From contig NZ_CAKMSR010000010.1 in the NCBI RefSeq assembly GCF_928381705.1, positions 62,001-126,000 of the forward strand: DNA of 64,000 bases, given 5' to 3'. Both the position numbers and the translations under genes were made by a program. Under the pieces are notes generated by a model. It worked only from the letters and a program-made list of their open reading frames with translations. It had not been told where the DNA came from and searched no databases. Shown piece after piece: positions 10,240 through 16,009 of the stretch; the first letter of the stretch is position 1; every line of letters starts with the position of its first letter. Source of the stretch: Rothia nasimurium. GTDB lineage: Bacteria; Actinomycetota; Actinomycetes; Actinomycetales; Micrococcaceae.

Positions 10240-10887
10240 TCATACCTTAAGCTCAAAGATCTGATCGCACATATGCGCTACCTCGGGGTCATGAGTAACA
10301 ACTACAAGAGTTTTACCGTATGCACGATGTAGATGAAGCAGCTCGGTCATCGCTACCATAGCAAGCTCCCTATCGAGAGATCCTGTTGGCTCATCGGCCA
10401 GTATCAGATTGCCGGGTTTCAGCAGGCACCTGGCCATTGCTACCCTCTGTTGCTCTCCACCCGAAAGGGTAGCTACCTTCTGATGGGCAAGGCGCTCAAC
10501 AGAAAGCTGCTGAAGAGTTTCCATGATTCGTTTATTTTTCTCGCTTTTCGACTGACTTACGTATTCCATGCCCAAGAGAATATTCTGCATTACGGTTTGA
10601 GACGGAATAAGAGCAAAGCTTTGGAAAAGATAGTTGATAGTGTTGCGACGGAGCAACATTGCTTTACGAGAGTGAACCCCAGGCGCTGCCTCGCCCCCCA
10701 AGCGTAAGCTGCCCGAATCTGCAGACTCAAGTAAGCCGATAATGTTGAGTAGCGTCGATTTTCCAGAGCCGGATCTGCCGATGATCGCTAAAGAGCTGCC
10801 TTCTGGCACTTGCAATGAAACTCCATCGAGAACTGTTCTTCCACCAAAATGTTTTGAAATGTTCGAAACTTCAACAAAGTTTTTCAT
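10240..10887 (-). CDS. ABC transporter ATPase of a lactococcin-972-type bacteriocin cluster
   Basis: A 215-aa MacB-like ATPase. Walker A is GRSGSGKST (about 37-45), there is a Q-loop FQSF, the signature is LSGGEQQRVAMARCL, Walker B is LILADEPTGSLD, and the H-loop is VVVTHD. Architecture and neighbours match the TIGR03608 family found with lactococcin 972. It is the third gene of a three-gene minus-strand operon, 9 nt after the membrane component. In that family it works with the membrane protein in export or self-immunity. Base composition is clearly lower in GC than in flanking genes, which suggests transfer. Confidence 0.9.
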   Translation of the reverse strand: MKNFVEVSNISKHFGGRTVLDGVSLQVPEGSSLAIIGRSGSGKSTLLNIIGLLESADSGSLRLGGEAAPGVHSRKAMLLRRNTINYLFQSFALIPSQTVMQNILLGMEYVSQSKSEKNKRIMETLQQLSVERLAHQKVATLSGGEQQRVAMARCLLKPGNLILADEPTGSLDRELAMVAMTELLHLHRAYGKTLVVVTHDPEVAHMCDQIFELKV

Positions 10888-10896
10888 ACTGTATAC

Positions 10897-13098
10897 CTAC
10901 GATTCTTTAATGAGGCTGACCATATGGGAGTAAGCAAATTTTTTAGAAAGCATATGTAGTAGTACTGGTTGTCCGACTAGCATAAGAACAGCAATGATTA
11001 GCCCCACCCGTGACTCAACAATAATCATTGCCAAGAGCCCAAGCGCGTTTACCAGAATAACAAGCAGGTAGGCCGGCTTGAAAGAAGACCAGAGATGGTG
11101 CCCTAGTAGTCTTGAGACAGCTATCTGATTGCGGAAGAGAAGCGAATAAAGCATGATAAATGCTGATAATGCGAAACCCGCAATAAGTCCAAGAATTAGG
11201 GTTACTGCACCAAATAGCTGAAGGTACTGATATATGCTTTTTTGTAGGCCAGCCACAAAGCTTTTAGATGATATAAAGATAGGCTGGTTATCGTCTAGGT
11301 TGTAAGACTCCAGGTATGAGAGGGAAGTATATTTATGAACTGCTTCTTCTGAAAGCTTTATATAACTTTGTTCTAGCCCAGAAGCGGATAGACTTTCCGA
11401 CTCAAAGTAGGTCATGTTAGCGGATGTCGCAACATAAATAACTACATCAGAGCTGAGGAAATCTTTTTCTGGATCGGCGTTCCAAGTAAAAATATCACCG
11501 TCAAGAGAATATTCTTCAATATACGTGCTTTGATTCTGTGTAAAAGCTGTGACTATATTTTGTTCTGCTTTTCCTTTCCGCTGTGCTTCTTGTTCCAGCC
11601 AACTGGTCAGTGAGGCCTTATCTTGAGGGCTAAAATGCTCGGGCAATAAGAATACCTGTTCACCTTCTTCAGCTCTCTTAAGGGTAGCTGGTGGAATTTC
11701 TATGCCGATTCTTTTCAGGTAGTTAGGGGAAGCTGCCATGTACCAGAACTCCCGGTACGGAGCGTCTTCACCGAGAGCTCTCCACTGCTGGAGGATTTCC
11801 TGGTCTGCATAATAAGTGTTGACCAGCGATACCCCGTTGTCTTTCTCGATGGAGGCGTACCAAGCGTAGAAATCTTCGGCTAACTCAGTGGATTGACCGG
11901 TGAAACTTGCGCTATCTGAGCCTGCACTTTGAGAGTAAAGGATGTATTGATCGGCAACCTTGTCCCATTCTTTTTGTACTGTGGTTATTTTCTCTACCTC
12001 TTTGATTGGAGTATCAAGAAAAGAGGCAGTGGTATAAAGGCCTGCTGTGGTTGTTATGAACCCCAGGGCTAGCAGGGCCACAAAAAGTTTTTGTGGCCTG
12101 TATCCACGAACTGCATGAATCGGTTTCATGCCCAGCAGGGGCAAAGACGACAGCAAGAAACTAGCAATAGCAATACCTATAGTGAGCATAAGGGGACGGA
12201 ATAGGGTAGAAGCTAGTGCCAGGCTTACTCCGAAATCTTTTAGGGTTAGCCAGGTTCCGATTGCAGTTAGTAGCGAGGTAGGTATAAGGGTGTAGGCCAG
12301 AGGTTTGGCTATGGTGAGTAAGTAGTTAGTCTTTGACCAGCCCAAGATAAGATAGGTGCCGAGTTCTTTTGCTCCTTGGGTGATGTAGATAAAGAGAACT
12401 AGAGTGAGCAGGGCTGTTGTCGAGAGCAATGACGTGAGGATAAAAATAGGCCATAGGCTAGTGCTTTGGTTACTTCCGGAGAGGGGGTTCAGAAGCTCTT
12501 CTTGGCTGATTCCACTGACTGCTGAGAGTTCTTGAAGGAAATCATTGAAATCCTCTTCACTGAAGCCGTACAGGAAATATTGTCCGTTGACTGTATTTGT
12601 TTCCTCCACCAAATCTGAAAACTTTCCTATGCTCAGATTTGGCCCGAAGGTAACTTCTGGTAGTTCTTGTAGGATGTTTTCCTCTACTGTGTAGAGTCCA
12701 AGGGTTTTTCCTTGTTCTGATGTGAGGAGATCCCCAATATTTTTGGTACCCAGAATAGTCACGCCCAGATAATTCAGTTCTGGCAAACTACTAAGATTGT
12801 TGGGGTCTGCGAGTAGACCTAGATGGGTTCCGTCCGCTGATCCGTCGACAGCAGATAGTTTTTTATCTGCCCTGATAAGGACAGCCTGCTCTTGAAAAAT
12901 CTTTGCGTTTAGGTAGCCTTCAACCTGCGCTGCTTGGTCAGGGTTCAGGCTTGAAATGGTAAAATTTTTCCCTTGGTGCAAATAATTGGTAATTTCTTTT
13001 TCGTAGCCATCTGCTCGAACAGCAGCGAAAAGAGCTATATTCACGACCGCTAGCAAGACTAATAATGCGCTAGCAAAGTATTTAAGAGTTTGGCGCAT
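10897..13098 (-). CDS. Bacteriocin-associated integral membrane protein (lactococcin 972 group)
   Basis: A 733-aa protein that resembles the TIGR01654/DUF1430 bacteriocin-associated family. One TM helix lies at residues ~7-28, followed by an extracytoplasmic region of ~185 residues. A block of TM helices follows (~215-345), then a second large extracytoplasmic domain (~370-605) and a final group of TM helices (~635-715). The overall plan is FtsX/MacB-like. I prefer ATG 13098 because AAGGGGG sits 11 nt upstream; a GTG at 13110 abuts that site. The gene lies 31 nt after the bacteriocin gene and 9 nt before the ATPase. Expected role: the permease half of the ABC system giving export and/or immunity. 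Codon use is AT-richer than in core genes. Confidence 0.88.
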   Translation of the reverse strand: MRQTLKYFASALLVLLAVVNIALFAAVRADGYEKEITNYLHQGKNFTISSLNPDQAAQVEGYLNAKIFQEQAVLIRADKKLSAVDGSADGTHLGLLADPNNLSSLPELNYLGVTILGTKNIGDLLTSEQGKTLGLYTVEENILQELPEVTFGPNLSIGKFSDLVEETNTVNGQYFLYGFSEEDFNDFLQELSAVSGISQEELLNPLSGSNQSTSLWPIFILTSLLSTTALLTLVLFIYITQGAKELGTYLILGWSKTNYLLTIAKPLAYTLIPTSLLTAIGTWLTLKDFGVSLALASTLFRPLMLTIGIAIASFLLSSLPLLGMKPIHAVRGYRPQKLFVALLALGFITTTAGLYTTASFLDTPIKEVEKITTVQKEWDKVADQYILYSQSAGSDSASFTGQSTELAEDFYAWYASIEKDNGVSLVNTYYADQEILQQWRALGEDAPYREFWYMAASPNYLKRIGIEIPPATLKRAEEGEQVFLLPEHFSPQDKASLTSWLEQEAQRKGKAEQNIVTAFTQNQSTYIEEYSLDGDIFTWNADPEKDFLSSDVVIYVATSANMTYFESESLSASGLEQSYIKLSEEAVHKYTSLSYLESYNLDDNQPIFISSKSFVAGLQKSIYQYLQLFGAVTLILGLIAGFALSAFIMLYSLLFRNQIAVSRLLGHHLWSSFKPAYLLVILVNALGLLAMIIVESRVGLIIAVLMLVGQPVLLHMLSKKFAYSHMVSLIKES

Positions 13099-13129
13099 GG
13101 TGCTACTCACCCCCTTGTGTCTTGTTTAA

Positions 13130-13426
13130 TTAGCCACGGCAGTTCCAGTAGGCGGTTGCCTGCTGTGTGCCAACGAATTGAACAGCTGATGCCAAAACAC
13201 CTGGCTTCTTCCAGCCAGAGAAGGTGGTGTTAGCGGTTGCAGAGTGGTCGTACGTGCCGCTTTGTACCTTGGAGTAGCTGTTGACACCCAGGCTGCGACC
13301 ATAATCCCAGCTCACTGCACTGTTTTTGTAGTACACGGTTGCAGCTTCGGCTGCCGTTCCAGCACCAAAAGCCGCCGCAAGTACCAGAGAAACCCCTGCT
13401 ACTGCTTTCAGAATTTTGTTCCTCAT
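13130..13426 (-). CDS. Lactococcin 972 family bacteriocin precursor
   Basis: A 98-aa precursor starting at ATG 13426, with AAAGGAG 9 nt upstream. The signal peptide is MRNKILKAVAGVSLVLAAAF followed by GAGTAAEA, with AEA/A cleavage predicted after residue 28. The mature peptide would be ~70 aa, close to the 66 aa of Lcn972. Family features are visible: WDYG near the start, GVNSYSKV, a HSATANTTFSG block, a GxxASAV segment, and a C-terminal AYWN. In Lactococcus, Lcn972 binds lipid II and blocks septum formation; activity here is an inference. The two cysteine-poor strands agree with a beta-sandwich fold; only one Cys is present, near the end. The next two genes encode the ABC pair. Confidence 0.9.
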   Translation of the reverse strand: MRNKILKAVAGVSLVLAAAFGAGTAAEAATVYYKNSAVSWDYGRSLGVNSYSKVQSGTYDHSATANTTFSGWKKPGVLASAVQFVGTQQATAYWNCRG

Positions 13427-13482
13427 TTCAATCAACTCCTTTGTGATTTCTTGGTGGGTGTGATTAGCGCCATGTGTGATTC

Positions 13483-13511
13483 ATAATATATATATATATA
13501 GTGATTTGCAA
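13483..13511 (-). promoter_or_regulatory. Bacteriocin promoter with a TA-dinucleotide repeat as spacer
   Basis: On the minus strand, -35 TTGCAA (13511-13506) and -10 TATTAT (13488-13483) are separated by exactly 17 bp. Twelve of the 17 bp are six TA units, and the run continues into the -10. The ribosome site and start follow about 57 bp downstream. Gain or loss of one TA unit would change the spacer to 19 or 15 bp. Confidence 0.65.
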
Positions 13512-13569
13512 CACCTTGAGCTGTTTGAGGTGAAGGAATCTTTTTATCAGTCTGAGGCCAAGTAGGCAT

Positions 13570-13590
13570 GCAGCGAAGCTGCTGGCTCGG
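13570..13590 (+). repeat. Dyad repeat element, core fragment (copy B)
   Basis: The 21 bases are identical to 2068-2088 of copy A (GCAGCGAAGCTGCTGGC plus TCGG). The flanks do not match and no partner arm was found, so this is a degenerate or truncated copy. Confidence 0.55.
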
Positions 13591-13762
13591 ACGAAATGGG
13601 CGGGTGCATAGCACGCAAGAGCAAACGCAGTCTGCCGTAAGGCGAGGCATGAACCGCCGAGTAAAAGAAGCTCACCAGATGAGCTGGTGACAGTAAGGGC
13701 AAGCCTGCGAAATGAATAAGCCTCAAGATTCTTGGGGCTTTCGCATTCGCTGGGGGTGCAAT

Positions 13763-14306: not shown

Positions 14307-14481
14307 GGTGTTTTCCTTAGGGTGGGAGCGATGGGCGCTCTGAAAGCGATTTACCTATTCTAATAGGTATATTTCTCGGGGTTCAGACAGAGATATCTGC
14401 TCTTGCACAAAAAATTTTTGACGAAACACTTGCATCCACCTAGCCCCAGGGGTTACATTTATTACAGATGGAGGTAAGACT

Positions 14482-14928
14482 ATGAGTGCTCAGACAGCAA
14501 CTCGCCTAAACCCAAACGAATTAACTGCCCATGAGGTGCAGACTCTTGAAAGCCTCGCTGCCGAATATTCAGCCAGCCCCGCGCTTCACATCCTTGTAAA
14601 CATGATTCTAGCCGCGAAGGAAAGCGGTGAACCTCTTGAAATCTTTTCCCACGATAAAGAACTATCACCTAACCAGGCTGCTCAGCTCATCGGTATGAGC
14701 CGTCCTTTCCTGCTCCGTTTCATTCGTAATGGGGAACTGAAAAGCCATACTGTAGGAACTCATCAGCGCATCAAACTCCCCGACCTTCTAGATTTTCAAG
14801 AGCGTCGAGTACGAGCCAAAGCAGGTCATGAAGAAGCTGTGAAGGCTCCTGTTGCTGAGTCTGTACTAGATCTTTCCGACAGTGAACTTGAAGAGCTCCG
14901 TCTAGGGTTCCAGGTTGGCGAGGAGTAA
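14482..14928 (+). CDS. Excisionase/HTH-type antitoxin-like DNA-binding protein (orphan)
   Basis: A 148-aa protein with GGAGGT ahead of ATG 14482. A helical N-terminal region (~1-60) precedes an excisionase-type winged HTH at ~62-115 (LSPNQAAQLIGMSRPFLLRF, then IRNGELKSHTVGTHQRI). The C-terminus is acidic. Proteins of this type in Actinomycetota commonly act as antitoxins of PIN-domain toxins. No PIN gene follows; instead the next gene is on the opposite strand and overlaps the last 27 bp. A promoter TTGCAT-N18-TACATT lies at 14430-14459. It is AT-richer than core genes. It may be an orphan antitoxin or the partner of the opposite-strand gene. Confidence 0.8.
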   Translation: MSAQTATRLNPNELTAHEVQTLESLAAEYSASPALHILVNMILAAKESGEPLEIFSHDKELSPNQAAQLIGMSRPFLLRFIRNGELKSHTVGTHQRIKLPDLLDFQERRVRAKAGHEEAVKAPVAESVLDLSDSELEELRLGFQVGEE

Positions 14929-15969
14929 ATCTATAACTCGCTGAGCGATGGGTTCCTTCAGTTCACACTCCTGACAGATGGGGAGAGCGCCGCTTTCCCC
15001 ATCTCTCGTTGGTACAAAAAATACTCCGCATAGGGATTGAACCGCTTTCCCCATGACGATGCTTTCTGTCAATTTCACCTTACTTGTGTAGTGGGCAACT
15101 ACCTGTTCGGTTGGCTCAATATCTGACAGGCGGATTTTACTGCTCTGACTGTTGGTGAGTAGCTGAGCTAGATGGGAGTAGCTGACAAAAAGTTCGAAGA
15201 CTAAACTGTCGGGGTCTCCCTGCGCATAAACGGACTCTACAAGACGTGTATCTGGTTGGAGCGGGCTCACCCAGTATCTGCGAATATCCTGCAGCGCTTT
15301 TTGATTCGATACTTTTACGCGGAGCGAAATAGAGGTATCACAATAGGTTTGGTGTGCTGTGTCGAGAGAAATATCAGGGTCACTTGCGGGTGAGATGTTG
15401 AGCGAGATGCTTGCCTTGTCTCCTTGAACCGTGACGGTATCGGAGACCGTAGCGCCGGGGGTCTTGACTGCTTGGTCAAGAATTGAAAGGAAAGCCGTTA
15501 AGGATTTTTGTCGTTCCTCTGCTAGTTTCTTCCGTTTCTCGTCCATGGTGTGAATAACGAGATCAAGCTTTTGAGGAAAGGCAGAGACCTTGCTCCTCTT
15601 CAAAAATTCTTGTGTTTCTGAATGGAAATGATCATGGGTAGCTGCATAGATAAGCCAGGGGACTGGTGCAAGAAAAATGACGGCCCCGCGCCAAGCGGCC
15701 CCGCACCGGTCGCGAACCTCGTATACAGTCTTACCTTCGATAGATGAACCTCGGTGTTTATCTGGTCTGAGTCCATACGCGAAGAAAGAGTCTGCATCAC
15801 TGAGAAGAGGGTGGCTGAGGTGCAGAAAAGAAATACTTTCGAGTAACTCTGCAAAGGCAGACGAATCAGCTGTTTCCAGCTTCCTGACCCTGTCGTACAT
15901 GACAGGGTCAGCAAAACTGTTGCGTGGAAGCCGTCTTAGAGTTTTGAGAGTGGGTCGAGTGATGCGCAT
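14902..15969 (-). CDS. Unknown 355-aa protein with possible RelE-like N-terminal and zinc-ribbon-like C-terminal parts
   Basis: I do not recognise the whole protein. Around residues 85-120, VYEVRDRCGAAWRGAVIFLA followed by WLIYAATHDHFH resembles the strand pattern of RelE/HigB-type toxins (VYELR...WR..Y). The centre (~125-300) is predicted mixed helix and strand, with a Lys/Glu-rich helix (DEKRKKLAEERQK). The C-terminus has HYTSKVKLTESIVMGKAVQS, then LCGVFFVPTRDGES and PICQECE, resembling the CG...CxxC ribbon of actinobacterial DUF3039 proteins. TAGAAT lies 6 nt before ATG 15969, indicating a leaderless start. It overlaps the HTH gene tail-to-tail by 27 bp. Function unknown; a toxin-like or nucleic-acid role is speculative. 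Confidence 0.75.
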   Translation of the reverse strand: MRITRPTLKTLRRLPRNSFADPVMYDRVRKLETADSSAFAELLESISFLHLSHPLLSDADSFFAYGLRPDKHRGSSIEGKTVYEVRDRCGAAWRGAVIFLAPVPWLIYAATHDHFHSETQEFLKRSKVSAFPQKLDLVIHTMDEKRKKLAEERQKSLTAFLSILDQAVKTPGATVSDTVTVQGDKASISLNISPASDPDISLDTAHQTYCDTSISLRVKVSNQKALQDIRRYWVSPLQPDTRLVESVYAQGDPDSLVFELFVSYSHLAQLLTNSQSSKIRLSDIEPTEQVVAHYTSKVKLTESIVMGKAVQSLCGVFFVPTRDGESGALPICQECELKEPIAQRVIDLLLANLEP

Positions 15970-16009
15970 ACCAATATTCTAGGTGTTGGTACGCAAATAA
16001 AGTGGCAGT

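Follow-up and report, generated by a model that had tools for sequence, protein, structure and literature searches.

A TA repeat in the predicted promoter spacer of a lactococcin-972-like cassette in Rothia nasimurium

The window analyzed here is a 64,000-nt stretch of a 126-kb contig from the genome of Rothia nasimurium (G000). A three-gene cassette is located on its minus strand in the order peptide, membrane protein, and L_ocin_972 ABC ATPase. The first gene (13130–13426, ATG at 13426) encodes a lactococcin-972-like peptide of 98 aa with a start that looks signal-like by eye. The second (10897–13110) encodes a bacteriocin-associated membrane protein, with matches to TIGR01654 (E 2.3e-22) and DUF1430 that fall short of the respective cut-offs. 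For the ABC ATPase encoded by the third gene (10240–10887), the best NCBIfam match was TIGR03608 (L_ocin_972_ABC, E 1.6e-70, 236.8 bits vs 254.85 cut-off), so the profile matches of both downstream genes are under curated cut-offs. On a Macrococcoides plasmid, too, the peptide match has a permease gene and an ATPase gene after it.

The 98-aa peptide had no match to PF09683 and reached 19 bits against TIGR01653, under the curated cut-off of 32.1. All nine aligned relatives matched TIGR01653 at E up to 1 (best 5.7e-07); relatives were found in Plantibacter, Mycetocola, and Frigoribacterium, in Clostridiales and Coriobacteriales assemblies, and on Macrococcoides/Macrococcus plasmids. When profiles were compared between the peptide family and ten PF09683 proteins from the genus, the probability was 9.8%, the AlphaFold model (8-row alignment) had a mean pLDDT of 47.5, too low for a fold search, and nothing below E 0.6 was found among PDB sequences. 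The peptide is called lactococcin-972-like here, as a putative divergent branch. Among 395 genomes of the family, close copies were present only in G000 and in its closest relative in the comparison, G030 (Rothia sp. isolate S13M_Sa_13, a metagenome assembly). In viral contigs, neither a relative of the peptide (searched by protein) nor the exact promoter flank was found.

Upstream of the peptide gene, the minus strand carries a −35-like hexamer TTGCAA (13511–13506, 4/6 consensus, within TTGCAAATCAC and the same in G030), the spacer ATCAC(TA)6, and a −10-like hexamer TATTAT (13488–13483, 5/6). The hexamers are separated by 17 bp, of which 12 bp are TA units, and the whole TA run detected by the sequence scan is 15 nt long (13486–13500), consisting of these 12 bp and 3 bp of the −10. 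A preliminary description of this DNA had noted the repeat, its continuation into the −10, and the exact 17-bp spacing, and all three were seen as described. A Shine-Dalgarno-like AAAGGAG was recognized by eye at 13436–13442.

The two hexamers match the promoter consensus at 9 of 12 bases. In the 5 kb scanned, this was the sole match, which agrees with the earlier statement that it is the only good promoter ahead of the gene, but the uniqueness is not proof, as shuffled sequences are expected to hold 3.0 matches and one match is not above chance. The promoter call is favoured by position: the ATG at 13426 lies downstream, preceded by AAAGGAG. In addition, G030 has the same two hexamers. Transcription would start near 13476 and leave a leader of roughly 50 nt. 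A 72-aa minus-strand ORF (13432–13650) spanning the repeat was rejected as coding, because the 2-bp difference in G030 would shift its frame. The repeat was also considered as a terminator and rejected; two terminator-like sites were located at 13669–13690 and none on the run. Separately, the hexamer AATCAC occurs four times on the minus strand within 13443–13506 (starts 13506, 13481, 13465, and 13448), and the middle two copies read AATCAT in G030.

A 15-nt alternating run was present in none of 100 dinucleotide shuffles of the 64-kb window, and the second-longest alternating run of the contig was 8 nt. Among the 35 genomes of the genus, (TA)7 was found in one, at one place, this being the source genome, and (TA)6 in two. 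The run is thus not due to chance, as judged from its absence from the shuffles and the single (TA)7 in the genus. Additionally, 429 upstream regions of G000, G030, and a third genome, G005, were surveyed by crude gene calls, which evidently missed the peptide genes themselves; none of the 429 contained a TA run of at least 9 nt. Distant relatives of the peptide in G029 (50% identity) and G362 (35%) had no TA run upstream, and none was found upstream of seven named distant homologues or the Macrococcoides homologue.

G000 and G030 are species representatives in a comparison with one genome per species. Their contigs were aligned over 101473 positions, with 8763 substitutions (8.6%). In the block holding the cassette (10240–13560), only 31 substitutions were found in 3321 bp (about 99% identity). 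When identity was calculated in 1-kb half-overlapping segments (n = 176), the median was 91.5%, and five of the six segments reaching 98.5% were within the cassette. Synonymous changes numbered 0 in the peptide gene, 10 in the membrane protein gene, and 4 in the ATPase gene. The sole indel of the block is one TA unit of the promoter spacer, missing from G030 and aligned at 13499–13500 (the exact placement inside the run is arbitrary). Five of the 31 substitutions, all C/T, fall inside 39 promoter bases (13460–13498), a clustering equalled in 189 of 20000 random placements. Since the tract holds the only indel of the cassette and lies where substitutions cluster, it is labile; since no other part of the contig is as similar between the two genomes as this block, the change is recent. 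The cassette was probably shared recently between the two species, the promoter changing fastest. Elsewhere in the alignment, the region 14400–15980, with an excisionase-type HTH gene (14482–14928) and a convergent DUF3039 gene (14902–15969), hardly aligned to G030 and probably reflects an insertion or deletion that distinguishes these genomes.

The promoter of G030 (TTGCAAATCACCACATATATATATTATG) has both boxes intact, a 15-bp spacer, and 10 nt of pure TA. Its run (CACATATATATAT) is shorter and interrupted, so that the uninterrupted tract is not retained in the relative and may be decaying there.

The effect of slippage on the spacing was scored with ad hoc spacing penalties. The run itself supplies an alternative −10, TATATT (13485–13490), which overlaps TATTAT and lies 2 bases upstream of it; each hexamer matches the consensus at 5 of 6 bases. 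With eight units, TATATT is placed at 17 bp from the −35-like hexamer. With six units, the best combinations are GTTGCA (3/6) at 16 bp or TTGCAA at 15 bp. The earlier expectation that slippage by one unit would give spacers of 15 or 19 bp, both poor, thus does not hold in full: an added unit is buffered, since the run extends into the −10 and brings TATATT to 17 bp, and only the loss of a unit gives up a good register. In the 429 upstream regions, −35-like hexamers preceded loose TAnnnT sites (n = 390) 24, 21, and 21 times at 17, 18, and 19 bp vs 14 and 14 times at 15 and 16 bp, with counts at distances outside the expected range also reaching 19 or 20. For strict −10 sites (n = 102), the counts were 3, 4, 2, 7, and 5 at 15, 16, 17, 18, and 19 bp, and a smaller survey limited to the G000 and G030 contigs showed no preferred spacer length. 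The genus preference for 17–19-bp spacers is weak, and the asymmetry, by which loss weakens and gain is tolerated, follows mainly from the logic of the hexamers rather than from a measured preference of the genus.

These observations are consistent with a TA microsatellite that sets the strength of the cassette promoter through the length of its spacer, a reading to which we give an even chance. According to it, the cassette would be driven by the predicted vegetative-type promoter, and TA units of the spacer would be gained and lost through replication slippage, so that spacer length, and hence promoter strength, would be reset lineage by lineage. The present seven-unit state would hold the −35-like and −10 boxes 17 bp apart. 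Loss of a unit would give 15 bp and is expected to weaken transcription, and gain of a unit would be buffered by the overlapping TATATT. We infer from the sequences that the promoter is in use, that expression changes with the spacer, and that slippage is the cause. The probabilities stated here and below belong to readings that overlap.

The same tract may have a plainer origin, namely an AT-rich run that grew in a little-constrained spacer and on which expression hardly depends. Spacer bases are generally under weak constraint. The absence of the run from distant homologues and the good register retained by an eight-unit allele agree with such neutrality, and the joint clustering of the substitutions and the indel fits relaxed constraint. 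However, the boxes of G030 are unchanged while its spacer differs in length, TA runs of at least 9 nt are otherwise missing from the upstream regions surveyed, and a variable tract occupies the corresponding position at an unrelated second locus for this class of peptide (see below). We consider a neutral microsatellite rather unlikely.

Another possibility is that (TA)7 slips within a clone often enough for cells to shift reversibly between high and low bacteriocin production, in the manner of the hif system of Haemophilus; this was also the suggestion of the preliminary description. The position of the tract and its seven units are in line with it, as are the one-unit difference in G030 and the five-unit threshold for dinucleotide repeats in H. 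influenzae, where hif carries (TA)9–11 (PMC2651432). The mismatch repair background points the same way: the source genome had no match in a MutS_V search that was positive for 11 of the 14 control genomes, and it contains one NucS. As NucS is unable to correct indels (PMC8228993, a review), slippage products might escape mismatch repair. Against this, the proofreading activity of actinobacterial DnaE could itself account for the suppression of short indels (PMC8228993), and tract changes in Cutibacterium acnes track clades, which its authors read as slow accumulation (PMC4746626). An extra unit is buffered in silico, and the interrupted, shorter run of G030 is evidence against a maintained switch in that genome. 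A clonal switch is possible but unlikely. What does stand of the earlier suggestion is that the tract varies in length, as shown by the one-unit difference between the two species; a second promoter has a G-rich tract that varies at the corresponding position.

This second promoter was found by inspecting the regions upstream of PF09683 peptides in the genus. In G004 it reads TTGCATATCACCAAGAAGGGGGGGTAGTAT, with a G-rich tract in the spacer, and lies about 130 bases before a PF09683 peptide gene (36 vs 22-bit cut-off). The two loci share the form TTGYANRTCAC...TANTAT. At the G-rich locus, the spacers are 18 bp in G004, 17 bp in G016 (where an A interrupts the G run), 16 bp in G018, and 17 bp in G019. 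Over 240 bp around the promoter, G018 and G019 differ by two substitutions and one internal gap, which is the G; over a longer 1600 bp, the mismatches number 23 and there is a second gap, of 6 bp. The other pairs have nearby gaps as well (a one-base gap, A, at −13 in G004, a two-base gap at −61 in G016, and, over 3 kb, 17 gap openings in the alignment of G016 with G018), so the G-rich tract is not the sole indel at its locus. In G019 (L084), the peptide gene has been lost and replaced by other sequence with no PF09683 match, while the promoter and the following frame are kept. The frame after the second peptide gene was considered as a DUF1430-like permease and rejected, its best match being FtsX at E 0.64 on the 306-aa part compared. 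The leader of the G-rich locus also contains an inverted repeat (L081, about 1564–1601; GATGCATGGA...TCCATGCATC), located after the promoter and ahead of the start codon.

The shared form of the two promoters allows that TTGYANRTCAC is bound by a regulator or an alternative sigma factor, the AATCAC copies from 13506 to 13443 being part of the site, and that the distance to the −10 matters in a way other than sigma-70 spacing. The pattern TTGYANRTCACN{8,16}TANTAT occurred at 7 places in the 395 family genomes, all within the genus. Six were at the two kinds of lactococcin-972-type locus (G000 and G030 at the window locus; G004, G016, G018, and G019 at the G-rich locus), against 3 places for the reversed pattern, 1 of them in the 35 genus genomes. 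The seventh, in G034, has a 13-bp spacer, precedes a frame that is transporter-like by eye, and was taken as chance. BLASTP detected no significant similarity between the peptides of the two loci or between their following frames (306-aa part), so the common promoter form is not explained by close gene descent. In the 429 background regions, the box was found at no more than one mismatch in 0 and at two mismatches in 1, and AATCAC is repeated four times within 64 bp at the window locus. The pattern count is partly circular, however, because the pattern was written from these same promoters and G019 was found through it. Moreover, of 21 other loci scored, only L010–L013 came within two mismatches of the box, the 126 kb holds 5 comparable clusters, the AATCAC one among them, in which some 6-mer is repeated four times within 69 bp, and a regulator gene was not identified. 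A binding site of this kind is possible, if somewhat unlikely. L013 (G020, TTGCACAACAC, 17 bp, one mismatch to the box) is only suggestive of a further promoter of this type.

Simple tracts were scanned at 30 peptide loci from −250 to +90 of the presumed start, some of the presumed starts lying too far upstream. Twenty-one loci had none, and the tracts of the remainder (L003, L005, L008, L010, L017, L025, L026, L030, and L032) were mostly A or T runs, so promoter tracts are a habit of some loci and not of all. Among the 429 upstream regions, G6 or longer was found in 5, G7 in 2, and C6 in 6. A chance estimate of 0.0008–0.0017 for two such promoters among 13–19, vs 0 of 429, was set aside, the number of independent promoters being itself only estimated and the 429 regions depending on the crude gene calls. 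In L017 (G005, 1302–1410), a signal-like frame from the ATG at 1302 stops just past a C8 tract at 1387 and the mature domain is in a different frame, making this gene a candidate for translational phase variation or a pseudogene.

A wider version, in which several independent tracts (TA, G, and the C8 of G005) form a contingency system that randomises bacteriocin output among siblings and lineages of Rothia, is tentative, and we would sooner doubt it than rely on it. If true, it would mean that unrelated loci share the TTGYANRTCAC box and that spacer tracts slip freely in a genus without MutS. In the open-licence literature on Rothia, bacteriocins, and phase variation, as far as it was accessible, we found no Rothia bacteriocin gene described as having a spacer repeat.

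Among known systems, the hifA/hifB promoter of Haemophilus influenzae carries (TA)9–11 (van Ham 1993, via PMC2651432 and PMC3899988). As in Rothia, the TA run lies between the −35 and the −10, and its length varies among strains of Haemophilus; strain R2866 has a decayed, interrupted tract, (TA)4ATTA, comparable to the interrupted run of G030 (PMC2651432). In Rothia, the repeat lies in a predicted spacer and differs between the two genomes, but the run of the relative is interrupted. The hif promoter differs in being a divergent promoter of two genes with a reported change in expression, whereas the Rothia run enters the −10 of one gene. HPT_37 of C. acnes is likewise an actinobacterial promoter in which the spacer, as inferred by its authors, differs by 2 bp via a simple tract (5 vs 7 C, with a 2-fold change in expression), but the tract is a homopolymer rather than TA and the gene is metabolic rather than for a bacteriocin (PMC4746626). 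The poly-G spacer tract of Neisseria porA, which sets the transcript level, resembles the G-rich locus, although porA encodes an outer-membrane protein in another phylum (PMC3899988). In the gonococcal nap island, bacteriocin-like peptides are thought to be phase variable via tracts, but these are within reading frames and not in a promoter (PMC11798529). Streptococcin B (scbABC) is lactococcin-972-like, and strains without the peptide gene retain B and C, much as the following frame is retained in G019; it differs in its ComE/competence regulation, and the accessible part of the source notes no spacer repeat (PMC11796350). Promoter tuning by spacer repeats is best known from Gram-negative mucosal pathogens and surface structures (as in PMC3899988). 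Here, such a repeat precedes an antimicrobial-peptide gene in an actinobacterium, and another promoter of this gene class behaves alike. Should output depend on tract length, mutation alone could give rise to producers and non-producers, which would bear on the persistence of bacteriocins in mixed communities.
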